Shown one piece after another: positions 2,135 to 45,312 of a stretch of DNA of 64,000 nucleotides. Source of the DNA: Streptomyces sp. NBC_01669 (lineage in GTDB: Bacteria; Actinomycetota; Actinomycetes; Streptomycetales; Streptomycetaceae); the NCBI RefSeq assembly GCF_026339735.1, contig NZ_JAPEQG010000001.1, positions 8,741,001-8,805,000 of the forward strand. The letters are read 5' to 3'. A program made the position numbers and the translations under genes. How positions within the stretch are numbered: the stretch's first letter is position 1; every line of letters starts with the position of its first letter. The notes beneath the pieces were generated by a model that saw nothing but the letters and a program-made list of their open reading frames with translations, was not told where the DNA came from and made no database searches.

Positions 2135-3640
2135 TCACAGGTCCTCTCCGGCCGGCGCGAGACGGGCCTCGGCCGCGTCCCAGGCGGCAGGGTCGCCGCC
2201 GGGCGGGTAGTGGCGCAACTGCTGGGTGTCCGCGACCAGTCGGCGCATCGAGGAGAGGTCGCCGACCAGACCGGCGGCCCTGGCCTGGACGAGGACGTTG
2301 CCGAGCGCGGTGGCTTCGGCGGGGCCCGCCACCACCGGCAGCCCGCAGGCGTCGGCGGTCAGCCGGCACAGCAGCTCGTTGCGCGAGCCGCCGCCCACCA
2401 GATGGACCTGGGTGATGTCGTGGTCGGCGAGCCGCGCGGCCTGCCGCAGGACCCGGCGGTGGGCCAGCGCCAGGCTCTCCACGATGCAGCGCACCAAGGC
2501 GCCCTGGCTGTCGGGGACAGGCTGCCCGGTGCGGCGGCAGTAGGCGCGGATCTGCTCCGGCATGTCACCGGGGGCGAGGAACTCCGGCGCGTCCGGGTCG
2601 ACCACCGACACGAACGGCCGAGCCCGGTCGGCCTCGGCGAGCAGCTCGGGCAGCCCGGTCGGCAAACCCTGCGCCGCCCAGGTGCGGCGGCACTCCTCCA
2701 GGAGCCACATGCCCATGATGTTGCGCAGGTAGCGGATGGTGCCGTCGACGCCACGCTCGTTGGTGAAGCCTGCCTTCCGGGACTCCTCGCTCAGGATGGG
2801 GGCGTTCAGCTCCAGTCCCGCCAAGGACCAGGTGCCGCAAGAGATGTACGCGAAACGGGGGTCGGCGGCCGGTACCGCGACGACGGCGGAGGCGGTGTCG
2901 TGTGAGGCGACCGTGGTCACCGGGGTGCTGGTGCCGAGCCCGGTGTACGCGGCGACGTGCGGCAGCAGGGTGCCCGCGGAGTCACCGGGTGCGCGCAGCG
3001 GCGGCAGCAGGCCGGGGGCGAGGGAGAGCCGGTCGAGGAGGTCGGGGCGCCAGGTGCCGGTGCGGGCGTCGAAGAGTGCGGTGGTGGAGGCGTTGGTCTC
3101 CTCGGCGCCGACGGTTCCGGTCAGCCAGTGGATGAACAGGTCGGGGACGAGCAGCATGGTGCGGGCGGCATCCATCTGGGCGGTGCCGGCCGCGGAGGCG
3201 AGCTGGAAGACGGTGTTGAAGGACAGGTGCTGAAGGCCCGTGATCCGGTACAGCTCCTGGGCGTCGATCCGGGAGAACACGGTGTCGGCGGCACCGTCGG
3301 TGCGGCTGTCGCGGTAGTGGAAGGGGTGCCCGAGCAGCGCGCCGTCACGGTCCAGCAGCCCGTAGTCCACCGCCCAGCTGTCCACCCCGACGGAGGCGAT
3401 CCGGCCGTCGGTACTGCGGGCGGCCTGGCGCAGCCCGTCGAGGACCCCCTGGAAGAGGGCGAGTACGTCCCAGTGCAGCCCGTCGGACAGCCGCACCGGT
3501 GTGTTGGCGAACCGGTGCAGCTCGGTGAGGACGAGCCGGTCCGGCGCGACCTCGCCGAGGACGACTCGTCCACTGGTGGCACCCAGGTCGGCCGCGGCGA
3601 ACAGGGCGGGTGACGCGGAGGGGGATGGGGTGGTGGTCAT
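2135..3640 (-). CDS. rhaB: Rhamnulokinase
   Basis: FGGY-family sugar kinase of 501 residues, the usual RhaB size. It phosphorylates L-rhamnulose to L-rhamnulose-1-phosphate with ATP, between the isomerase (6180) and the aldolase (3935) of this locus. Visible features are the N-terminal ATP-binding phosphate-1 motif DLGATSGRVVLGEV, the substrate segment GVDSWAVDYGLLD, the GGGSRNELLCRLTAD adenosine motif near the C-terminus and the hinge AEATALGNVLVQA. An upstream in-frame extension exists, but the ATG at 3640 is preceded by a GGAGGAG ribosome site at correct spacing. It lies about 300 bp downstream of the aldolase gene beyond a strong hairpin, so it may have its own promoter. The call rests on family motifs plus pathway context. 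Confidence 0.93.
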   Translation of the reverse strand: MTTTPSPSASPALFAAADLGATSGRVVLGEVAPDRLVLTELHRFANTPVRLSDGLHWDVLALFQGVLDGLRQAARSTDGRIASVGVDSWAVDYGLLDRDGALLGHPFHYRDSRTDGAADTVFSRIDAQELYRITGLQHLSFNTVFQLASAAGTAQMDAARTMLLVPDLFIHWLTGTVGAEETNASTTALFDARTGTWRPDLLDRLSLAPGLLPPLRAPGDSAGTLLPHVAAYTGLGTSTPVTTVASHDTASAVVAVPAADPRFAYISCGTWSLAGLELNAPILSEESRKAGFTNERGVDGTIRYLRNIMGMWLLEECRRTWAAQGLPTGLPELLAEADRARPFVSVVDPDAPEFLAPGDMPEQIRAYCRRTGQPVPDSQGALVRCIVESLALAHRRVLRQAARLADHDITQVHLVGGGSRNELLCRLTADACGLPVVAGPAEATALGNVLVQARAAGLVGDLSSMRRLVADTQQLRHYPPGGDPAAWDAAEARLAPAGEDL

Positions 3641-3884
3641 GAGGTGGCTCCTCCGCGGGGCGTGCGGTGGTGTCGATGGGGGAGGGCGGGGCCGGGGCAG
3701 CGTGACGTGGCCTTGCTGCCCCGGCGGGGAACCGGGCGCGCGGGGCCCCTGCTGTCCTCGGGCCCGTGGGCGTGGGCGCACGGGGACGTCCGGACGGCCT
3801 GTGCGGTGGTGAACCGTCCGGACGTACCCCGTGCGGGGGAAGCCGGGGCCGACGGTGCGGGGTCGGCGCCGGCGGGGTCGGCGG

Positions 3885-14150: not shown

Positions 14151-14335
14151 GGGAAACACCGGGGTTGCGAGCTGCTGTCGGTTTGCTGCGCTGAAGTGAG
14201 TTGGAGCGAGCGGGAGTGAGCCTCTGTCGGCGGGTTCATGGGGGGAACGGGGGTTCTGGGGTCGAGTGTGTGACCTTTGGTGCCTGTGTTCGTTGGGCTG
14301 GGTGGCAGGTGTCCGGCCTTGCGGGAGGGGGTGAT

Positions 14336-16006
14336 GTGGTGGGTGGTCTGCGGAAGTTGGCCGTGCCCTTCGTGGTGCCCGGGCCTTGCGGGGTGGCGAT
14401 CCGGGACCGGCTGGGGCACCTCACCCCCCACGACGAGATGGTGCTGCGCGCGGTCGGCGAGCACCAGGGTGCGCTGGCTTCCCGTGATCTCAAGGATCGC
14501 TGTGCGGATGGCCACGATCACAGCGCTCAGACATGGGCGGCGCGTAAGCGGGAGCTGACGGCACGGTCGTCGTCGCGGATCGCGGGTGCGATCACCAAGG
14601 CCACGCACGATCAGTGGGCGCTGGCCCGGCGTTGCCAGGCCGCGCACGTGAAGAGCCTGGCGGCCGGGATCAGGACGTTGCGGCATCGGTTGTCCCTCCC
14701 GATCGGGGAGAAGGGCACCAGGCGCGCGGCGGGTGGCTACCGCTCCCGGGGTGAGTGGTTCCGCAAGTCCCGCCGCCTCGCGGCACTGGAGGACCGGCAC
14801 ACGGCGGCTGTTGCCGACTGGCAGGCCGGACGGGTCCGAGTGGTGCGGGGCGGGAAACGTCTCCTCAACACCCGCCACCACCTCACCCAGGCCCAGCTCA
14901 CCGAAGACCGGTGGCGGCAACGGTGGGAGGCGGAACGCTGGTTCGTCGCCGCCGACGGTGAGTCGGGTAAGCGGTTCGGGAACGAGACGATCCGTGTCAC
15001 CCCGGACGGCGAAGTGTCCATCAAACTGCCTGCCCCGCTCGCGCACCTGGCCAACGCCCAGCACGGCCGGTACACCCTCACCTCCCGCATCGCATTTGCG
15101 CACCGGGGTGGGGAGTGGGCCGACCGCATCACCGCGCACCGGGCCGTCGCCTACCGCATCCACCTCGATACGGAGCGAGGCCGCTGGTATTTCACCGCGT
15201 CCTGGCAACGCCCCGTCGTCCAGACCATGCCGTTGGAGACTGCCCGCGCCCGGGGCATGATCGGCGTCGACACCAACGCCGACCACTTCGCCGCCTACCT
15301 TCTCGACCGGCACGGCAACCCGGTCGGTGACCCGCACCGCTTCCCCTACGACCTGTCCGGCACCGCCGCTCACCGCGACGCACAGCTCCGCCACGCCCTG
15401 ACCCGGTTGATCAACTGGGCCAAGCAGGCTGGCGTCGCCGCGATCGGCATCGAAGACCTCGACTTCACCGCCGAGAAGACCCGCGAGAAACACGGCCGCA
15501 GGAAACGGTTCCGGCAGCTCATCTCCGGCATGCCCACCGGCAAGCTCCAGGCCCGACTGGTGTCGATGGCCGCCGAACACGGCCTGAGCATTGTCGCGGT
15601 CGACCCGGCCTACACCTCCCAGTGGGGTGCCCAGCACTGGCAGAAACCGCTGACCACCCCCCACCGAAAGATGTCCCGTCACGATGCCGCCGGTATCGCG
15701 ATCGGACGACGCGCCCTCGGACACCCGGTCCGGGATGGGGTATCCCCTGCTCGAACGGAGTTGAGAGCTTGGGGAAGGACGGCACCGCCCCCACACGACC
15801 GGAGTGATCGTGCGGGGCATCGGACCGTCCAGGCCGGACCAGGTGACCGGGGGCGTGAGGGAACCCGCCCACCGACAACGGACCGTGCCCACGAAGGGCC
15901 GTCGCCGAGCGGGAAGCGAAAGCGGGAACCCATTGCATCCAACACCGTTCGGGATGCGCGCAGTACGCAGCGGTGGGTCCAAGACTCACTTATGTGCACT
16001 GGTTAG
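14336..16006 (+). CDS. tnpB: IS605-type TnpB (RNA-guided RuvC nuclease), zinc ribbon absent
   Basis: About 556 residues from GTG 14336, chosen for the GGGAGGGGG just upstream; ATG 14201 is the alternative. The RuvC-like catalytic triad is present: Asp in IGVDTN (15269-15271), Glu in IGIEDLDF (15452-15454) and Asp in SRHDAAG (15683-15685). Between the second and third motifs, where most TnpB proteins have a CxxC...CxxC zinc ribbon, this protein has DPAYTSQWGAQHWQ and no cysteine pairs. The Arg/Pro-rich C-terminus is read through the element's right end. No tnpA (Y1 transposase) is nearby, so the element is non-autonomous unless helped in trans. By family knowledge such proteins are guided by an RNA made from the gene's 3' end and flank. 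Confidence 0.8.
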   Translation: MVGGLRKLAVPFVVPGPCGVAIRDRLGHLTPHDEMVLRAVGEHQGALASRDLKDRCADGHDHSAQTWAARKRELTARSSSRIAGAITKATHDQWALARRCQAAHVKSLAAGIRTLRHRLSLPIGEKGTRRAAGGYRSRGEWFRKSRRLAALEDRHTAAVADWQAGRVRVVRGGKRLLNTRHHLTQAQLTEDRWRQRWEAERWFVAADGESGKRFGNETIRVTPDGEVSIKLPAPLAHLANAQHGRYTLTSRIAFAHRGGEWADRITAHRAVAYRIHLDTERGRWYFTASWQRPVVQTMPLETARARGMIGVDTNADHFAAYLLDRHGNPVGDPHRFPYDLSGTAAHRDAQLRHALTRLINWAKQAGVAAIGIEDLDFTAEKTREKHGRRKRFRQLISGMPTGKLQARLVSMAAEHGLSIVAVDPAYTSQWGAQHWQKPLTTPHRKMSRHDAAGIAIGRRALGHPVRDGVSPARTELRAWGRTAPPPHDRSDRAGHRTVQAGPGDRGREGTRPPTTDRAHEGPSPSGKRKREPIASNTVRDARSTQRWVQDSLMCTG

Positions 16007-16015
16007 GAACGGTCC
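15960..16015 (+). mobile_element. Right end of the IS605-type element (putative omega-RNA scaffold end)
   Basis: From about 15963 to 16015 the DNA matches, with few changes, the reverse complement of 41515-41568, up to and including GGTTAGGAACGGT; beyond that the two loci differ. The shared block includes the last codons of tnpB (WVQDSL...TG stop) and an imperfect subterminal inverted repeat. The conserved edge marks the element boundary, and the adjacent unique sequence would be the guide segment if an omega RNA is made. Confidence 0.65.
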
Positions 16016-37921: not shown

Positions 37922-39397
37922 ATGACCTCATCCCTCTCTTCCCTCCGCCGCGCCCTGCGCACGGACTTCGCCTCCTCCCTGGTCGTCTTCCTCGTCGCCC
38001 TGCCGCTGTGCGTGGGCGTCGCCGTCGCCTCCGGTGTTCCCGCCGAGCTCGGCCTGATCACTGGCATCGTCGGCGGCCTGGTCACCGGCCTGCTGCCCGG
38101 CAGCAGCCTCCAGGTCAGCGGTCCGGCCGCGGGCCTGACCGTGCTGGTGCTCACCGCGGTGACCGAATACGGACTGCCCGCGCTCGGCATGATCGTGCTG
38201 GCCGCAGGACTGCTTCAACTCGCCCTCGGCGCACTGCGGTTGGGCCGTCTCTTCCGGGCCGTCTCCCTGTCGGTCGTGTACGGCATGCTCGCCGGCATCG
38301 GGCTCGTCCTGATCACCGGCCAGATGTACGCCCTCGGCGACCGCAGGGCCCCCGGCAGTGGCCTCTCCAATGTTGCCGGTCTGCCCGGCCTCCTGACCGA
38401 CGTCCTCGGATCGGGGCCGGCCCTGACCGCGATCGGTATCGGTGCCGGGACCGTCGTCGTCATGACGCTGTGGAAGAAAATGCCCGCCAAGGCACAGCTG
38501 CTGCCCGGGCCGCTTGTCGCGGTCGGTCTGGCGGTGCTGGCCACCGTCGCCTTCGACCTGCCCGTCGAGCGGGTCGAGGTCAAGGGGCTGACGGAGGCGA
38601 TCCAGCCGCCCGGCCTCGACGGCTTCTCTCGCCTGTCGGACGTCGGTCTGCTGACCACGATCGTCGCCTTCACGCTCATCGCGTCGGCCGAGTCGCTGTT
38701 CAGCGCGGCGGCAGTGGACCGGCTGCACGACGGGCCGAAGACCGCCTACGACAAGGAGCTGATGGCCCAGGGCGCGGGCAACACGGTGTGCGGGCTGCTC
38801 GGCGCGCTTCCGATGACCGCGGTGATCGTCCGTAGCGCGGCCAACGTCCAGGCCGGCGCCCGCACCAAGGTCTCCCGCGTCCTGCACGGCCTGTGGCTGC
38901 TGCTGTTCGCCGCCCTGCTGCCCGGCGCGCTGGGCATGATCCCGACCGCGGCACTCGCCGGGGTCCTCGTTCACGCGGGCTTCAAGCTGCTGCCCGTCGA
39001 GGAGTTGGGCCCTCTGTGGCGTGAACATCGAGGGGAAGCGGTGGTGTTGACGGTCACCGCCGGGGCGATCCTGGTCACCAACATGTTCGACGGCGTCCTG
39101 ATCGGGCTACTGCTCGCGGTGGTGAAGACAGCGTGGGAGACCTCACACGTCCACATCGAGGTCGACGACGCGGGCACCGGCCCGGTGACGGTGCGGATCG
39201 TCGGTCACGCCACCTTCCTGCGCCTCCCGCGTATCCTCGACGCCCTGGAACAGCTGCCCACCGACCGCCCCATCGAGCTCAACCTCGCCGGACTGCGGCA
39301 CCTCGACCACGCCTGCATGAGCGCCCTGCAGAGCTGGTCCGACCAGCACAACGCGCACACCGTCCAGCCCGAGCACACCACCTCCCGGACGGCGTGA
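37922..39397 (+). CDS. SulP-family anion transporter
   Basis: 491 residues from ATG 37922 (GAGAGA upstream). The start FASSLVVFLVALPLCVGVA is the SulP first membrane segment, followed by about a dozen hydrophobic helices and a C-terminal cytosolic STAS-like domain (from about 410: VRIVGHATFLRLPRILDALE, LNLAGLRHLDHACMSAL). SulP proteins move sulfate, bicarbonate or related anions with Na+ or H+. The carbonic anhydrase next door favours bicarbonate, but this is inference. Confidence 0.9.
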   Translation: MTSSLSSLRRALRTDFASSLVVFLVALPLCVGVAVASGVPAELGLITGIVGGLVTGLLPGSSLQVSGPAAGLTVLVLTAVTEYGLPALGMIVLAAGLLQLALGALRLGRLFRAVSLSVVYGMLAGIGLVLITGQMYALGDRRAPGSGLSNVAGLPGLLTDVLGSGPALTAIGIGAGTVVVMTLWKKMPAKAQLLPGPLVAVGLAVLATVAFDLPVERVEVKGLTEAIQPPGLDGFSRLSDVGLLTTIVAFTLIASAESLFSAAAVDRLHDGPKTAYDKELMAQGAGNTVCGLLGALPMTAVIVRSAANVQAGARTKVSRVLHGLWLLLFAALLPGALGMIPTAALAGVLVHAGFKLLPVEELGPLWREHRGEAVVLTVTAGAILVTNMFDGVLIGLLLAVVKTAWETSHVHIEVDDAGTGPVTVRIVGHATFLRLPRILDALEQLPTDRPIELNLAGLRHLDHACMSALQSWSDQHNAHTVQPEHTTSRTA

Positions 39398-39484
39398 GCG
39401 CGGGGCCGTGTGGCGGTGTCCGGCGACCCCACGGACTATGGGTGACACAGCTGGTGAACAGCGACCGGCGTTCACCCGTATCCC

Positions 39485-40939
39485 CTAAGCTTGATCTTTA
39501 AGGCTGCTGCTCGGCCCCGCCGCGTCTAGGCATATCCGTTTTGCGCTGTTTCTTGCCGACTGGGTGGCGGGGTGCGGGGGTGGAGGTGCGGCCCTTGGGG
39601 CGGCCTGGGCCGGGGTGGGAGGCTTTCGGCGCGCGGGCCGGGGTGCCCAGGATCCGCCGGATGCGGGGATAGCCGCGCCGGACCCGGCCGGGGTGAGCCG
39701 ATCCGGTGTCAGGGGCTTTTCCCAGGGGCGCCGGAGGTCCTCGGTCAGGGGGCGGGCGAGACGGAGTTGCGCGTAGGCGGCGAGGATCAGCCACACCCAC
39801 CGGTCGGCCTGTTCGGGGGTGCGCAGGCGGGGTCGGGTCAGGCCGAGGGTCTGCTTGAAGAAGCGGAAAGTGTGCTCGATATCGAACCGTCGAAGGAAGA
39901 TCCGCCAGAGGCGGTCGACGTCGTGCGCGGTGGCGTCGGGGTCGCTGTGCCACAGCCATAGCGGCTTGGGGGCGCGGTTGCCGGGCAGGTGCTCGACCGC
40001 CAGATGGACCAACGTTCCCTCGACGAGGGGGAGTTCGCCTTCGTGGTGGGCCCAGGAGCCGCGCCGGTCCAGCTTGGGGTGCAGGCGGCCCCAGCAGCGG
40101 GCGAGGACCTGGCCGAAGCGGTCGTGGACGCCGGCCGACTCCTGGACCGGGGCCGGGTGGGCGGCGGGGTCGGCGAGGCGGAACTCCGCTCCATGTCGGG
40201 GCGGGCGCCCGGGGTTCGTTCCGCGGCGCTTGCCGGCCGGGGCGCGCATCACCCGGTCGGCGCGGATGCGGCCCAGCAGCCGCACCGGCTCCTCGCGCAG
40301 CAGCCAGGTCAGGCGCACGAGGTCGTAGCCGGAGTCCAGGACGAACAGCACCGGCAAGTCGCCCGGTCGCCACTGCCCGGCCCGCTCCAGGCGGGCGACA
40401 AGGTCGCGGATCTGGGCGGCGGTGACCTCGGTGGGATCGTCCTCGGGCCCCAATCGCACCGCGTCCAGCGGCCCGGTCCACGAGGAGCGGCCGCCGCCGA
40501 GGGCCGCCGCGACCTGGTAGGGCCAGCCCGGGATGGTCTGACGCACCCCGTCGCACCGGCACGGACGGTGGCAGTGCAGCCGCTGGGGCGAACACTCGGC
40601 ATCCGGACGCGGCCACGGAGTGACGTCCAGCGCGATGGACAGCTGCCCGTCCGCCCCGCGCGGCAGTACGAGCCCCGCCAGGGCCATCCGAAGCCGGGAC
40701 ACGTTGATGTGCCCCTGGGCCAGCGCGTCGTACATCGCTCCGTGCCCGCGCCGATGCACCCCCGACAGCGAGAGTTCCGGCAGGGACGTCACCGGCCCGT
40801 CGGCGCACAGCACCGCGTCCATGAGCTCGAACAGAGCATCCGCCCGCAACGTCAGGCACTCGTACAGCTCACGGCGAAACCGGGACAACCCGGCCAGGGC
40901 CTCGACGCGCACGGCGCCGTCTTGCAGACTGTCCATCAC
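39485..40939 (-). CDS. DDE-type IS transposase (NF041680-like)
   Basis: 484 residues from GTG 40939 (ATG 40936 is the next codon). Catalytic acids are visible as Asp in IALDVTPWPRPD, Asp in LFVLDSGYDLV and Glu in FDIEHTFRFFKQTLGLTRP. It belongs to the streptomycete IS family whose transposases begin with a DGAVRVEALAGLSRFRREL-type segment. No frameshift or stop is seen, so it is probably functional. The Pro/Ala/Arg-rich C-terminus is unremarkable for the family. Confidence 0.85.
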   Translation of the reverse strand: MMDSLQDGAVRVEALAGLSRFRRELYECLTLRADALFELMDAVLCADGPVTSLPELSLSGVHRRGHGAMYDALAQGHINVSRLRMALAGLVLPRGADGQLSIALDVTPWPRPDAECSPQRLHCHRPCRCDGVRQTIPGWPYQVAAALGGGRSSWTGPLDAVRLGPEDDPTEVTAAQIRDLVARLERAGQWRPGDLPVLFVLDSGYDLVRLTWLLREEPVRLLGRIRADRVMRAPAGKRRGTNPGRPPRHGAEFRLADPAAHPAPVQESAGVHDRFGQVLARCWGRLHPKLDRRGSWAHHEGELPLVEGTLVHLAVEHLPGNRAPKPLWLWHSDPDATAHDVDRLWRIFLRRFDIEHTFRFFKQTLGLTRPRLRTPEQADRWVWLILAAYAQLRLARPLTEDLRRPWEKPLTPDRLTPAGSGAAIPASGGSWAPRPARRKPPTPAQAAPRAAPPPPHPATQSARNSAKRICLDAAGPSSSLKDQA

Positions 40940-40987
40940 GGCCTTTGGTTGATCAACGTGTCTCTTGGCGGAAACACATGATCAAGC
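39489..40987 (-). mobile_element. Insertion sequence carrying the DDE transposase
   Basis: GCTTGATC at 39489-39496 and its complement GATCAAGC at 40980-40987 bracket the transposase gene, giving an element of about 1.5 kb. Only 8 bp of terminal repeat is exact and no clear target duplication is visible, so the ends are tentative. Confidence 0.5.
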
Positions 40988-41016
40988 AGAGGCCGCCCAG
41001 CTGTCAGGCGAACGAC

Positions 41017-41049
41017 AAACCCCACCAAGAAATGATCTTGGTGGGGTTT
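41017..41049. terminator. Strong bidirectional hairpin beside the IS
   Basis: A perfect 14-bp stem (41017-41030 with 41036-41049), 5-nt loop, with an A/T run on each side. It would terminate transcription in both directions between the IS and the copper-gene remnants. Confidence 0.8.
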
Positions 41050-41125
41050 AAAGCCAAGCTAAGAGGAGCTCAGTACGCCCGCGCCGGCCCCGTCTGCGCA
41101 GGGCGGGCACAACCCCGATCTGGAG

Positions 41126-41250
41126 GGGCAAGGTGGCACACCAGCAACCGCGAGGACGCACCCGCCGCGTGGCGCGCGGCGGCGCCGTGGCCGTCGGCCC
41201 GGCGCTCCTTCCCCTGGCCAGTGCCTGCAGCGGCGGCGAGGACGATGCCA
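41126..41250 (+). pseudogene. Lipoprotein N-terminus remnant
   Basis: After a GGAGG site, GTG 41133 starts TRRVARGGAVAVGPALLPLA followed by SACSGGEDD. This is a lipoprotein signal with a Cys at the cleavage site. Within about 30 more codons the frame loses coding character and the CopD-like frame takes over. It could be the start of a copper chaperone (PCuAC or SCO-type), judged from context only. Confidence 0.5.
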
Positions 41251-41542
41251 GACAGTCGGCGCCGGCGCACCCTCGGGTGACGGCGACACGCAAGACTGCT
41301 GCGACGCCGAGCCGCCCGCCGCACCCGGCCCCGTATCAGGCCGCCCGGAACGGCCCGTCCCGCTGCCGGAGCAGTACCGGCGCGGCCTGCGCCGAACAGT
41401 CGCAGCCGAAGCCGTCCTCGGCGTCATCGTGCTGGCGATCACCACCGTGCTGACCGGAACCCAGCCCAGCCGAGCCGCCGCGCAGAACGTCACCGCCCAG
41501 GCGGTCGCCCAGCTACCGTTCCTAACCAGTACGCAACAGTGA
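41250..41542 (+). pseudogene. CopC/CopD copper-resistance protein remnant
   Basis: The frame that ends at TGA 41540-41542 includes PLPEQYRRGLRRTVAAEA and VLGVIVLAITTVLTGTQPSR, the last membrane helix of CopD-domain proteins. The protein then runs into the transposon end (LTSTQQ stop) rather than its normal C-terminal domain. The N-terminal part is missing, so this is a central piece only. Confidence 0.65.
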
Positions 41543-41568
41543 GTCCTGGACCCACTGTTGCGTACTGG
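41515..41568 (-). mobile_element. Solo right end of an IS605-type element
   Basis: Read on the minus strand this block matches 15963-16015, including codons for TQQWVQDSLLRTG and a stop, then GGTTAGGAACGGT. Its core is a perfect 16-bp inverted repeat (41526-41541 with 41553-41568, 11-nt loop). There is no tnpB or tnpA next to it. It truncates the CopD remnant. Confidence 0.7.
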
Positions 41569-41662
41569 GCGCAGGGGCCGATCCGCCGCAGAACCAGCCC
41601 CGACAGGTGCTCCCGCGGGGCAGCGGTGGTTCCGCCCCGCGGGTTCACCCGGACTCCTCCGG

Positions 41663-42409
41663 TCAGCTGTCGGACGCTGCGGCGCGGCGCTTGACCAGCC
41701 ACCAGGCGCCTCCGCCCAGGACTGCCAGCGCCACGACCACCCCGCCGATGATCAGGCCGGTCGGGCTGCCCCCGTCCTCGTCCTCCTTCTCGGCGGGCGT
41801 TGCGCCTGCGTCCGAGTTGTCGGCGGCAGGCGTGGACTTGGCGGCCGACGGCGTGGGAGTGGCCGTTTCGCTCGCCGTGGGGCTGGGGCTGGGGCTGATC
41901 GGCGTGGCGCCCGGGGCGGCGGCCTTGAGCTTCAGGACGGGCGCGGGCTGTTCGGGTTCCGCGCCGCCGCTGGGCAGTTCGATCCAGCGGGAGACCTCGC
42001 CGTCGCTGTAGGTCTCGACCGTCTTGAACGCGAGCTCCTTGGCGTCCGGCAGCTGCCGGACCTTGACCTTGTACTCGGCGTCCGTCCCGACGGCGAGCTT
42101 CGGACCGCCCAGTGTGTAGCCGTCGTTCGTGGCCTTGAAATTCCAGCCCTTGGGCGCTTCCACGAGCGTGACGTCACCCGGCGCGATGCCTTCGGGAAGG
42201 ACGACGCGCATCTCGGTGAAGCCCGCGCTGCCGGACTCGGCCTCGGAGACGAAGCTGAGCGTAACGTTCTCGGCCAGGGCCTGAGCGGTGTCGGCCTCGA
42301 CCTCCGCGTGGGCGGAAGCCGGGCCGGCCAGGGCCAGGGTCGCCGTCAATGCGAGGGCGCCGACGACGCCGATCCGTCGCGTGGTCCGGCCGAGAACGTG
42401 CGTGGACAT
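41663..42409 (-). CDS. YcnI-family copper-binding membrane-anchored protein
   Basis: 248 residues from ATG 42409. The signal peptide (RIGVVGALALTATLALAGPASA) leaves a mature N-terminal His in AHAEVEAD, the copper-binding residue of YcnI/DUF1775 proteins. The domain continues with VVLPEGIAPGDVTLVEAPKGWNF. A Ser/Thr/Pro-rich linker (about 150-210) leads to a single membrane helix (LIIGGVVVALAVLGGGAWW) and a basic tail. It probably handles Cu(II) outside the membrane. The frame is open to 42739, but only this start gives a signal peptide. Confidence 0.88.
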   Translation of the reverse strand: MSTHVLGRTTRRIGVVGALALTATLALAGPASAHAEVEADTAQALAENVTLSFVSEAESGSAGFTEMRVVLPEGIAPGDVTLVEAPKGWNFKATNDGYTLGGPKLAVGTDAEYKVKVRQLPDAKELAFKTVETYSDGEVSRWIELPSGGAEPEQPAPVLKLKAAAPGATPISPSPSPTASETATPTPSAAKSTPAADNSDAGATPAEKEDEDGGSPTGLIIGGVVVALAVLGGGAWWLVKRRAAASDS

Positions 42410-43133
42410 GGACACAGGAGAACTCCTTGCTGGTGCTGAAGCCGGGCCGGCCGAAGCCGAAGGGCCCGGGTGAGGGAAGGACCGGGACGCGCTCGCGTCC
42501 CGGAGGTCCCCTGCGCACCAGCGCATGTTCCAGAGTGTGTGTCCGCGGTGGGGCCGGATCGGTGAAGCGGCCGGCGAGCCGAGCGCACGGCGGCTTGCGG
42601 ACATCACCGAGGGCGAGGCGTGGCAGCACCCGCAACAGGACCGCGGCTGCGACCGCGCGGGCGGCGCGGGCGGCGGCCAGGGCCACGGTGACGGCAGTGT
42701 CGGCGCGGTGCAGCAGCCAGGCCGCTGCAAGAGCGGCAAGGACGTGGGCGGTGGTCATGGCCGTCCCGGCGTCGTGCCAGGCATGCCCGCTTCCCATCTC
42801 CATCGCGGCATGACCGGCGTGGCCCCCTTGGCCGGGTTTCGCCTCGTGCTCGCCGCCCTCCCAGGTCAGGGCCAGGTGTATTCCGCCCTGGGCCACCAGA
42901 GTGCAACCGATGATCACCGCCAGGGAAGAGCGACGGCGGGCGAACGGCCAGGCCACCACGAACTGGACCGCGGCGAAGGCGGTCACCAGCCGCCACGGCA
43001 CCGCGCCTTCGGCGACCGCGTGGTGGCCGAGGGCCGCCAGCACGCTGCCGACGAGCGCGAACAGCCCGGCCCGCACGCACGCCACGGCACGATCCGGCCC
43101 CGGGCGGCCGCCCAGGCCGTCGTACGCCGTCAC
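42174..43133 (-). CDS. His-rich polytopic membrane protein, probably copper-related; C-terminus uncertain
   Basis: Start GTG 43133 (AGGTG just upstream) or GTG 43148. About five hydrophobic segments (FALVGSVLAALGHHAVAEG, AVIIGCTLVAQGGIHLALTW, MTTAHVLAALAAAWLLH) surround a His/Met-rich loop HAGHAAMEMGSGHAWH, a plausible copper ligand set. The native end should be near residue 215 (about 42480). The frame instead stays open to 42174, overlapping ycnI in another frame, so a lost stop or frameshift is likely. It is the usual upstream neighbour of ycnI in streptomycetes. Confidence 0.6.
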   Translation of the reverse strand: MTAYDGLGGRPGPDRAVACVRAGLFALVGSVLAALGHHAVAEGAVPWRLVTAFAAVQFVVAWPFARRRSSLAVIIGCTLVAQGGIHLALTWEGGEHEAKPGQGGHAGHAAMEMGSGHAWHDAGTAMTTAHVLAALAAAWLLHRADTAVTVALAAARAARAVAAAVLLRVLPRLALGDVRKPPCARLAGRFTDPAPPRTHTLEHALVRRGPPGRERVPVLPSPGPFGFGRPGFSTSKEFSCVHVHARSRPDHATDRRRRRPRIDGDPGPGRPGFRPRGGRGRHRSGPGRERYAQLRLRGRVRQRGLHRDARRPSRRHRAG

Positions 43134-43181
43134 TTGATCACCTGGCACGGTCGCCCATCATCCTCTCTCGTTCGTCCTGCG

Positions 43182-43295
43182 TCAGGCGGACCCGCGGATC
43201 GCCTCGGCGAGCAGTTGGGGCGTGCGGGTGGAGACGTAGACATACGGGGTGGGGTCATCGGGGTCGACGACCTCGACGCGGACCGCTGTGGGGGT
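43182..43295 (-). pseudogene. DUF3093-like C-terminal fragment
   Basis: The minus-strand frame reads VRVEVVDPDDPTPYVYVS then TRTPQLLAEAIRGSA and a stop at 43182-43184, resembling the end of actinobacterial DUF3093 proteins. It is joined to an unrelated hydrolase fragment near 43300. Confidence 0.45.
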
Positions 43296-43299
43296 GCAG

Positions 43300-43672
43300 C
43301 TGCAGCGAGGGGGCCGCGGGTGTCCTCCTGGACCGGGCACAGGGTGGGGGCCACGACCAGCAGCGGCGTGGTCGGATGCCCCTCGCGGATGGTGTCGAGG
43401 AAGCCATGCACCGCAGGGGTGAAGGCGCGCAGGCGCATCACGTCGGAGTTGACGACATTGATGCCGACCTTGACGCTGATCAGGTCCGCGGGGGTGTCCC
43501 GCATCGCGCGGGCGGTGAACGGGTCCAGCAGGGCGCTGCCGCCGAACCCCAGGTTGACCAGCTCCACTCCGCCCTGGGCGGCTGCCAGCGCCGGCCGGAT
43601 GGCACCCGGGCCGGCAGTGTTAGCGAGATGCCGGGCGGCCACGGCTTCCTGCTCGAGCAGACGCTTGCACAC
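43300..43672 (-). pseudogene. SGNH/GDSL hydrolase fragment
   Basis: An internal part with VELVNLGFGGSALLDP and the block III-like segment ISVKVGINVVNSD, then TTPLLVVAPTLCPVQED. The N-terminal GDS block and the C-terminal DxxH block are both missing. It is fused at its 3' side to the DUF3093-like fragment. Confidence 0.6.
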
Positions 43673-43690
43673 GTCGGCCTTGCGTTGTGA

Positions 43691-44085
43691 ACGGCTCTGT
43701 CATTGCGGTGCCCGCAGAAGTCCGCAGAGCGCACCGATATTACGCGGTGTCATATTCGCCATGGTTGATCAGGTTTGTGCTCAGATCCGTGCGCCAAGCC
43801 GAGGCCAGAGCAGTCTTGAGATTCGTTTCATCACCGGACTGAAGCCCCGCGCACGGCCAATGACCCCGGTAGCGCTGCAACGCGCCGGAGCGGGAGTGTG
43901 TGCAGGTCCGCGGGCAAAGTGTGGCTGCGGCGATCAGCGGTACACGCCCGCGGCCGCCCCCGATCGAGGGCGGCCGCCACAGGCTCTGTCGGAGCGATGG
44001 CCGACAGGTCAGGAAACTGGATGCGCGGCCGTGTCCTGGCCGGCGCGCGGCCCGTGAGCCGTGGTCCGCCGGCCGGTCCGCGCGC
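43691..44085. other. Gene-free stretch
   Basis: About 395 bp without a credible frame on either strand. It contains a GGCTCTGTCATTGCGG block at about 43691-43706 that looks like an IS terminus, but no partner end was found. Confidence 0.35.
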
Positions 44086-45312
44086 TCACTTCGTCGCGTC
44101 CGGCTTCACGATGTCGGGGAGCTTCGCCTCGAACATCTCGTCGAGCTTCATCGAGGGCAGGATGTGGCCCTGGTTGGGGGCCTCGTTGGCGATGCTCGCG
44201 CCCCATGTGGACGCCGCGATACGCTGGTTGGGCGTGCCGTGGTGCCCGTTGCTGCTGAAGCTGCAGTCGCCTACCTGATAGAAGGACTTGGCGGAGTCGA
44301 GCACCCGCTTGGTGTTGAGGGCCTCGCCGCGCGAGTGCGTGAGGAAGTACGTGCCGAACGCGTCCGCCATCAGCTCGGTGCGACGGGTGGCCTCCGGCCC
44401 GGTCAGTGCGGTGTTGTCGAACAGGTTGTTCTCGTACTGCACGTGGTGGCCGAACTCGTGGCCGAGGATGGCGCGCGGAGCGGTGTTGCCCAGGCCGATG
44501 GCCTGCATGGCCTCCAGGATGCCGTCACCCATGATGATGCGGTCGGAGATGCCCAGCGGCTGCGGGTCGCCCTTCTCTGAGTAGGCGAACGCGTTGAACG
44601 TGAAGATCGGGTTGGCGCCGCCCTTCAGTACGGGCTCGGAGTCGACCAGCGAGATGAACAGCTCGGCCAGGTCGAGGTTGCTCTCGGGCGTGCCGCCGTA
44701 CAGCACGGACAGGGTGCGGGCGAGCCGTTCCGGGGAGGAGTAGACGTCGGCGCCGTGCATCGGCATGAGCTGGATGTCGTCGGAGTAGATGTCCCAGAAT
44801 CTCTTGAGATTCTTGGCCTCGGACGTCAGCTGGTTGGTGTATTCGCCGTTGACACCGTAAGTGTTGGAACTGGACTCGCTGCCGAACAACAGCGCATCGT
44901 ACGTGGGGAAGTCGAACCCGCCGAACAGAGAGAGGATGAAGATCGCGAAGGGGTCCTTGGCGCCGTCGAGCAGAGTGTTCGCATAGGCCGTCAGATCCGT
45001 GCTCTGGCACTGGTAGTCGCCCGGGTTGATGACGCTGTTGAGGATGTCAGCCCACTGGGTGTCGCCCATGCCGTACGTGGTGTTGGCGGCCTGGCGGCGC
45101 GCCTGCCAGTCGGCCGGCAGTTTGGCCAGGATCTCGTCGACGAGGGCCTTCGTCTTCGGGTCGAGCGAGGATGTGTCGATCGCGGAGCCGTAGGACGCGG
45201 CGGTGACGGCGGTGGCCGTCGTGCCGTCCGCGGCCGCTGCCGGCAGGGCGGCCCCCAACGTGCAGGTGGCCGCGGTCACGAGGGCAACGGCCCAGGCGGA
45301 GGTCTTCTTCAC
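44086..45312 (-). CDS. Secreted zinc metallopeptidase (HExxH)
   Basis: 408 residues from GTG 45312 (AAGGAG 6 bp upstream). The Sec signal KKTSAWAVALVTAATCTLGA is cleaved near PAAAADG. The zinc site HEFGH is at 285-289, in AILGHEFGHHVQYENN, and a probable third ligand Glu313 lies in RRTELMADAFGTYF, a gluzincin-like spacing. The call rests on this motif; the physiological substrate is unknown. It is divergent from the HTH regulator at 45619, which may control it. Confidence 0.85.
   Translation of the reverse strand: MKKTSAWAVALVTAATCTLGAALPAAAADGTTATAVTAASYGSAIDTSSLDPKTKALVDEILAKLPADWQARRQAANTTYGMGDTQWADILNSVINPGDYQCQSTDLTAYANTLLDGAKDPFAIFILSLFGGFDFPTYDALLFGSESSSNTYGVNGEYTNQLTSEAKNLKRFWDIYSDDIQLMPMHGADVYSSPERLARTLSVLYGGTPESNLDLAELFISLVDSEPVLKGGANPIFTFNAFAYSEKGDPQPLGISDRIIMGDGILEAMQAIGLGNTAPRAILGHEFGHHVQYENNLFDNTALTGPEATRRTELMADAFGTYFLTHSRGEALNTKRVLDSAKSFYQVGDCSFSSNGHHGTPNQRIAASTWGASIANEAPNQGHILPSMKLDEMFEAKLPDIVKPDATK

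Follow-up and report, generated by a model that had tools for sequence, protein, structure and literature searches.

The analysed stretch of Streptomyces sp. NBC_01669 (the window; 64,000 nucleotides, positions 8741001-8805000 of C3 in a genome of 10.8 Mb) carries at 41.5 kb a solitary right end (RE) of a TnpB element. We consider this solo RE to be the remnant of a full TnpB element which would have inserted into a copD gene, been deleted down to 59 bp and had its terminal hairpin corrected by a template switch, and we put the probability of this reading at about 0.9. The solo RE is homologous to the REs of full elements; the left end, the 3' part of copD and the omega-RNA scaffold are absent. 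Most likely the remnant does nothing now. The features of the window are collected in Table 1.

Table 1. Features of the window that bear on the solo RE (positions are those of the window)
Feature	Position	Strand	Basis or remark
Full tnpB element, same family as the solo RE	14165..16013	+	left flank GGGG at 14161-14164
tnpB open frame, 601 aa	14201..16006	+	RuvC D357, E418, D495 kept; no zinc-ribbon cysteines
omega-RNA region of the full element	15707..16013	+	model R1, 95.6 bits, E 7e-20, model positions 1-255
RE of the full element, stretch repeated by the solo RE	15955..16013	+	homology
copD fragment, 5' and 3' parts absent; frame enters the RE and stops	41347..41514 (about)	+	homology to copD-type genes in the loci of 16 relatives
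Solo RE, 59 bp	41515..41573	-	terminates in ...GGTTAGGAACGGT at 41515; homology to other REs
Last 16 tnpB codons and stop, frame intact	41522..41572	-	comparison with the full element
Palindrome 3' arm; holds three bases differing from the nearest copies	41526..41541	-	arm comparison
Palindrome 5' arm, perfect 16 bp	41553..41568	-	arm comparison; folding
Spacer from the inner edge of the RE to ycnI, 89 bp; putative deletion junction 41573/41574	41574..41662	.	no left end and no copD 3' part recognised
Open frame of the ycnI-like gene	41663..42739	-	matched in 4 of the 16 relatives' loci

An earlier note on this DNA had described the minus strand as repeating the RE of the element at 14-16 kb, and this is the case, 51 of the 59 bases being identical. 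The note had set the extent to 41515-41568; a RE is indeed present there, and the homology reaches a few bases further, to 41573. The last tnpB codons are retained in frame as had been claimed, namely 16 codons and the stop (APSTQQWVQDSLLRTG-stop vs ARSTQRWVQDSLMCTG-stop), and beyond them no tnpB is attached. When a whole element (L043) was compared by BLAST with the region 38000-45000, we obtained only 41515-41573 and a palindromic self-match, all else having E >0.01. There is thus no further tnpB in this region and no left end, which the earlier note had named as the sign of a deleted full element.

At least 24 other REs in the genome match the solo RE (E 1e-21 to 8.3e-12, 85-95% identity), a lower bound as 40 of 110 candidates were scored. 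Each of them has a TnpB match attached and all keep more of tnpB than the 16 terminal codons of the solo RE; in 10 other genomes tnpB is likewise attached to 12 of 12 REs. In the genome search for further solo ends, as proposed in the earlier note, REs of the same type carry tnpB throughout (at least 24 of 24), with no second bare copy among them in the 40 of 110 candidates scored, and one nearly bare RE belongs to the miniature type. The latter (L029, C3:7412332-7412366) has 58 bp in common with L028 and scores 30.1 bits with the covariance model R1 described below. It is one of the five weaker RE matches (L028-L032), which are miniature elements and hold no tnpB of the kind found at 14-16 kb save a 16-residue match in L029.

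A tblastn search with the TnpB of the 14-16 kb element (P0001) returned 35 matches in the genome at somewhat fewer places, some copies being split. Several copies have lost their 5' part and kept the RE, with tnpB starting at residue 259 (L059), 305 (L061), 339 (L062) or 548 (L025), and the solo RE continues this series of truncations. For the scan of left ends we took 31 loci of this genome and dropped seven by hand, either for want of a left end or as places already counted; of the 24 scanned, L052, L055, L057, L058 and L060 did not match the pattern in the stretch scanned, and in the remaining 19 all left ends (19/19) lie directly 3' of GGG. The flanks of the element in L045, whose host gene presumably codes for FG-GAP-like repeats, rejoin in frame across ...GCAGGGG-T-ACCCGGC... 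(one T), so that its insertion produced no target duplication. A fragment of a Y1 transposase (C3:8447634) was observed about 1.5 kb from the RE of L045.

The family shares with the IS1341-type (tnpB-only) elements of the IS200/IS605 group, for which ISDra2 is the model, a RE with a subterminal palindrome, still present in the solo RE, and an omega/reRNA overlapping the 3' end of tnpB. Insertion 3' of a fixed short motif with no target duplication is likewise common to both, the motif being TTGAT in ISDra2 (PMC8612924) and GGG in the solo's family. In ISDra2 the short 3' flank used as guide measures about 16 nt (PMC8612924). In contrast to a complete IS1341-type element, the solo RE lacks a left end and retains of tnpB just the 16 terminal codons. 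Y1 transposase (PF01797) has 28 matches elsewhere in the genome, many of near-equal score and 145-148 aa long, and none lies inside the tnpB elements by coordinates.

Zinc-ribbon cysteines in TnpB usually sit before RuvC-III; the parent TnpB lacks them, and none of the 15 TnpB sequences aligned has a cysteine between AYT and RHDAA. In the same alignment D357, E418 and D495 are invariant (15/15), which from the family motif we take to be the catalytic RuvC D-E-D residues. The protein scores 34.2 bits against TIGR01766, above the cut-off of 32, and 52.7 against NF040570 (guided_TnpB), below the cut-off of 100; nothing in Pfam exceeded its cut-off. A profile search against solved structures gave a weak Cas12f match (E 7.6e-4) as best hit, and the predicted structure (mean pLDDT 51.1) was too poor for use. 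The last 90 or so residues, which overlap the omega-RNA region, are predicted with very low confidence. Relatives of this TnpB occur in Streptomyces, Kitasatospora, Nonomuraea, Actinomadura and Acrocarpospora, the closest named ones being from Streptomyces.

The solo RE cuts a copD gene, as the earlier note had it. The frame of the copD fragment continues for about 12 residues past a shared motif and then runs into the RE and stops, whereas all seven relatives translated (7/7) continue for 124-134 aa beyond the motif. On the side where the left end would have been, roughly 110-120 aa are therefore gone relative to the relatives. We found no trace of the missing 3' part elsewhere in the genome besides a paralogue of 41% identity, and with this as the sole other match a rearrangement of the 3' part instead of its deletion was ruled out. 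The 5' part of copD is absent as well, so the RE is not the only damage to this gene, which has at least two lesions and must have undergone more than one event. At 41100-41340, upstream of the copD fragment, there is a frame which by eye starts like a secreted lipoprotein, a sign of a second lesion.

With transposon ends counted in and two candidates scored per genome, at least 108 of 392 genomes, among them this one, have a match somewhere in 41340-41700, and the copD matches in other genomes are at most 88% identical. The ycnI-like gene, which we take to be a DUF1775 gene, stands near copD as in the window in four of the 16 relatives' loci (L072, L074, L076, L077). A search of 60 other genomes, 36 from the genus and 24 from outside it, with 11 candidates scored per genome, found no undeleted element at E <=1e-20, nor was there a closely related empty site among the genomes compared. 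For this reason the deletion is inferred and not seen.

The perfect 16-bp hairpin described in the earlier note is borne out, the two 16-nt arms being exact reverse complements. Folded as single-stranded DNA the solo RE gives a helix of 20 bp with -22.5 kcal/mol (z -4.84), equalled by none of 200 shuffled sequences. The RE of the copy at 14-16 kb folds poorly (-9.4 kcal/mol, z 0.11; 6 of 16 arm positions mispaired), and thus the solo RE is not a plain repeat of it. Among 39 REs compared, the solo RE included, zero arm mismatches occur solely in the solo RE and in L110, the others having 2 to 7; in this comparison the count for L051 is not comparable owing to a 1-nt insertion, and L063 was left out as the same place as L064. 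The solo's own perfect palindrome, with up to 3 mismatches allowed, is present in 1 of 392 genomes, namely this one. From its nearest copies, L039 and L056, the solo RE differs at 3 of 59 bases. Each of these bases is in the 3' arm and repairs a mispair with the 5' arm, which is itself unchanged; the chance that three random changes would fix all three mispairs is about 1e-5, with the nearest copies picked post hoc.

Template switches that copy one palindrome arm onto its partner are among the known types of mutation (PMC8794818, PMC7202029), and such a switch probably accounts for the perfect hairpin of the solo RE in one step. The second perfect palindrome belongs to a full tnpB element (L110, 3763-3821, genome G257) and has another sequence, as if it had been corrected independently. 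Since this palindrome is perfect yet different, the correction process may recur. Selection for a perfect hairpin could have acted instead of a replication accident, and the palindrome of L110 fits both. The idea that full elements have the middle of their 3' arm inverted was dropped, as three copies of this genome (L039, L055 and L056) mispair at just 3 of 16 arm positions.

Taken together, a full TnpB element of the IS605/IS1341 type, about 1.85 kb long, would have inserted into copD on the minus strand, presumably 3' of a GGG target. Uninterrupted, copD would be expected to continue CAGCTACCC or similar across the insertion point. In a later deletion, possibly a single one, the left end, nearly all of tnpB and of the omega-RNA and also the copD 3' part would have been lost, so that the 59 terminal bp remain as a solo RE abutting the copD scrap. 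A template-switch (quasipalindrome) correction may then have copied the 5' arm onto the 3' arm and so produced the perfect hairpin. That the solo RE is a decayed copy, the first of three possibilities raised in the earlier note, is supported by the series of truncated copies that keep their RE in this genome, by the absence of a left end and by the loss of copD on the left-end side. The remnant thus appears to be mostly ordinary decay, a member of the known terminal debris of IS605 elements with a hairpin that was probably corrected. It is useful as a control, showing how little of a RE can persist and that remnants and complete RNA copies can be told apart by an omega-RNA model.

Very short sequences that carry the end palindrome of an IS605-type element after loss of its core have been described before. 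Haloquadratum walsbyi has terminal-only IS605 remnants of 52 bp and a non-coding PATE with a long piece of the end of an IS605-type element (PMC3119063). It seems very unlikely to us that the solo RE is such a unit, that is, a palindrome which moved by itself or was left by recombination between the end palindromes. The size is alike (59 vs 52 bp), terminal-only remnants are on record, and L029 provides a nearly bare RE, of the miniature type, in this genome too. The Haloquadratum cases, however, are described as having both ends fused and intact flanks, whereas the solo RE consists of one end and has lost the flank on the other side, which makes it a remnant and not a unit; and the REs of its own type carry tnpB, as detailed above for at least 24 of 24.

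We regard it as highly improbable that the hairpin has been retained to serve as a transcription terminator or mRNA-end structure where the copD scrap and ycnI converge. A strong hairpin does lie between convergent frames, but the upstream gene is a fragment, no T run follows the hairpin on either strand by eye, and downstream of ycnI there is already a G+C-rich inverted repeat (about 41612-41643, also by eye).

Hardly credible at 41.5 kb is the earlier note's proposal of an orphan omega-RNA gene that would guide the 14-kb TnpB in trans with its own flank, in copD, as guide. TnpB copies exist in the genome, and the solo RE has kept the 3' terminal hairpin and the junction with the flank. The proposal can be judged with the covariance model R1, which was built from tnpB-less loci alone and has 255 positions. 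The underlying alignment A1 covers a conserved 3' block of 27 tnpB-less loci from 25 genomes (three loci in this genome); five of 32 candidate loci (L118, L133, L135, L138, L139) were omitted as their end was not found, and R1 later matched all five. The predicted structure of A1 has 71 pairs, with 98.3% of the cells pairing. Sixteen pairs are changed on both sides, a number reached by none of 500 shuffles, in a test which favours the structure as both come from one alignment. Further pair types were at least as numerous in 25 of 500 shuffles, and sliding the structure by 1-3 columns left 1 to 6 two-sided changes.

R1 matches the 3' end of tnpB from its first to its last position in 31 of 31 tnpB-bearing loci. 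Likewise, further tnpB 3' ends were matched at every such locus compared, 12 from other genomes and eight from this one, and in the named genomes 79 of 80 tnpB loci (the best 80 of 363) were matched; the one miss, L205, matches tnpB only to residue 510. Since a model made without tnpB loci matches the 3' ends of tnpB, including 15707-16013 in the window, the RNA is most simply the omega-RNA of this family. No Rfam family matched the window at its gathering score.

R1 has no match at E <=1 at 41515-41573 nor in the surrounding 3.1-kb locus (L001), and yet it matches every tnpB 3' end tested (31/31 and 20/20); the 169-nt remnant L025 still scores 68 bits. The absence of the solo RE from the genome-wide R1 list weighs less, as 150 of 13831 candidates were scored. 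About 200 of the 255 model positions are missing from the solo RE; helices 1-11 cannot form, and what is retained is helix 12, the terminal hairpin, with part of one strand of the preceding helix. As only the terminal hairpin is kept, we reject an orphan omega-RNA gene at this place. Stand-alone omega-RNAs of IscB, reportedly described by Altae-Tran and colleagues in 2021, are guide RNA loci away from the nuclease gene; they belong to IscB and not to TnpB, and the solo RE is no such locus. In the IscB omega-RNA the guide is at the other end of the RNA.

A miniature element, the remaining possibility of the earlier note, is ruled out at 41.5 kb by the missing left end (BLAST of L043 over 38000-45000). 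The miniature elements have a RE of the solo's kind, a related RNA and mostly a GGG left flank (GGGG is in the search pattern, so this is not independent), and differ from the solo RE with its 59 bp in that 21 of the 27 aligned have kept a left end and the RNA, about 255 nt long, is complete.

The orphan omega-RNA idea would fit other places of the genome better, and the tnpB-less omega-RNA elements outside the window are a more interesting lead than the solo RE. With 150 of 13831 candidates scored, R1 matches this genome at no fewer than 41 places, and from the overlap with the TnpB matches 27 of these are with and 14 without tnpB. Five tnpB-less copies are truncated and nine are full length (256-257 nt, 226-268 bits), the latter at C3 positions 160029, 8813119, 8573366, 3891123, 5870925, 6507073, 3824364, 177586 and 1784540, in the loci L161, L165, L169, L174, L179, L184 and L188 and within L031 and L051. 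One of the full-length copies lies about 8 kb past the right edge of the window. Seven full-length copies were fetched, and six of them have a left end 3' of GGG and a length of 359-361 bp; L184 has no left end by the pattern used. A search with the 14-kb TnpB found in the seven two weak matches only, both to the tnpB tail inside the RNA block (36%, E 0.004 and 0.007).

Copies without tnpB occur also in 24 other genomes of the genus, and at 30 loci (L116-L145) no tnpB resembling the 14-kb one lies within about 1.5 kb. In the aligned set a left end is present in 21 of 27 loci by a lenient pattern (up to 4 mismatches, with GGGG as part of it), giving lengths of 351-363 bp. Identity is 85-91% in the RNA columns, 59-66% in the spacers and 41-43% in the flanks. 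With a miniature element as query 84 of 392 genomes matched at E <=1e-8, a count that includes tnpB-bearing ends, with two candidates scored per genome, and which bounds the number of miniature elements neither from above nor from below. TnpB and miniature elements occur together in 27 of 29 genomes vs 3 of 20, a biased comparison, since genomes entered the group of 20 by lacking an omega-RNA match. The four Rfam matches obtained with the miniature RNA all stay below their gathering scores and fall outside the block.

A promoter-like pattern, TTG-N16-19-TAnnnT, directly precedes the RNA block in 17 of 27 loci, as compared with a mean of 0.125 of 27 after shuffling, the pattern having been picked after viewing the alignment. 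About 60-65 nt upstream of the block the motif CTCGATCGTGTGATGGTC (up to 4 mismatches) was found in 25 of 29 loci of other genomes (L117-L145); it was not seen in L117, L118, L124 and L137 nor at the left ends of tnpB elements. Neither the promoter-like pattern nor this motif is present in L117 or in the three aligned copies of this genome, and the latter weakens the reading of the tnpB-less copies as self-standing guide-RNA genes. The miniature elements may have arisen by simple internal deletion; that the motif is missing from the left ends of tnpB elements tells against this, whereas its absence from this genome's own miniature copies does not.

With this reservation we consider it possible, at somewhat less than even odds, that the tnpB-less copies are self-standing mobile guide-RNA genes which use the TnpB of related elements in trans, each being preserved where it has inserted because TnpB would cut that site when empty. 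Most of those outside this genome would then have their own promoter-like region, and the solo RE of the window might represent a late stage of decay of the tnpB-bearing partner family. If the tnpB-less copies do work in trans, TnpB would be a shared resource and the guide RNAs could spread on their own; a soil bacterium rich in natural guides would then allow a test of what keeps TnpB in genomes. In the part of the literature covered we found nothing on tnpB-less omega-RNA elements in Streptomyces. One locus of this genome (L051) contains both kinds of element, a tnpB element at 2968-3236 (+) and a tnpB-less omega-RNA at 3503-3759 (-), arranged tail to tail about 270 bp apart, so that their 3' flanks (the guides) face each other.
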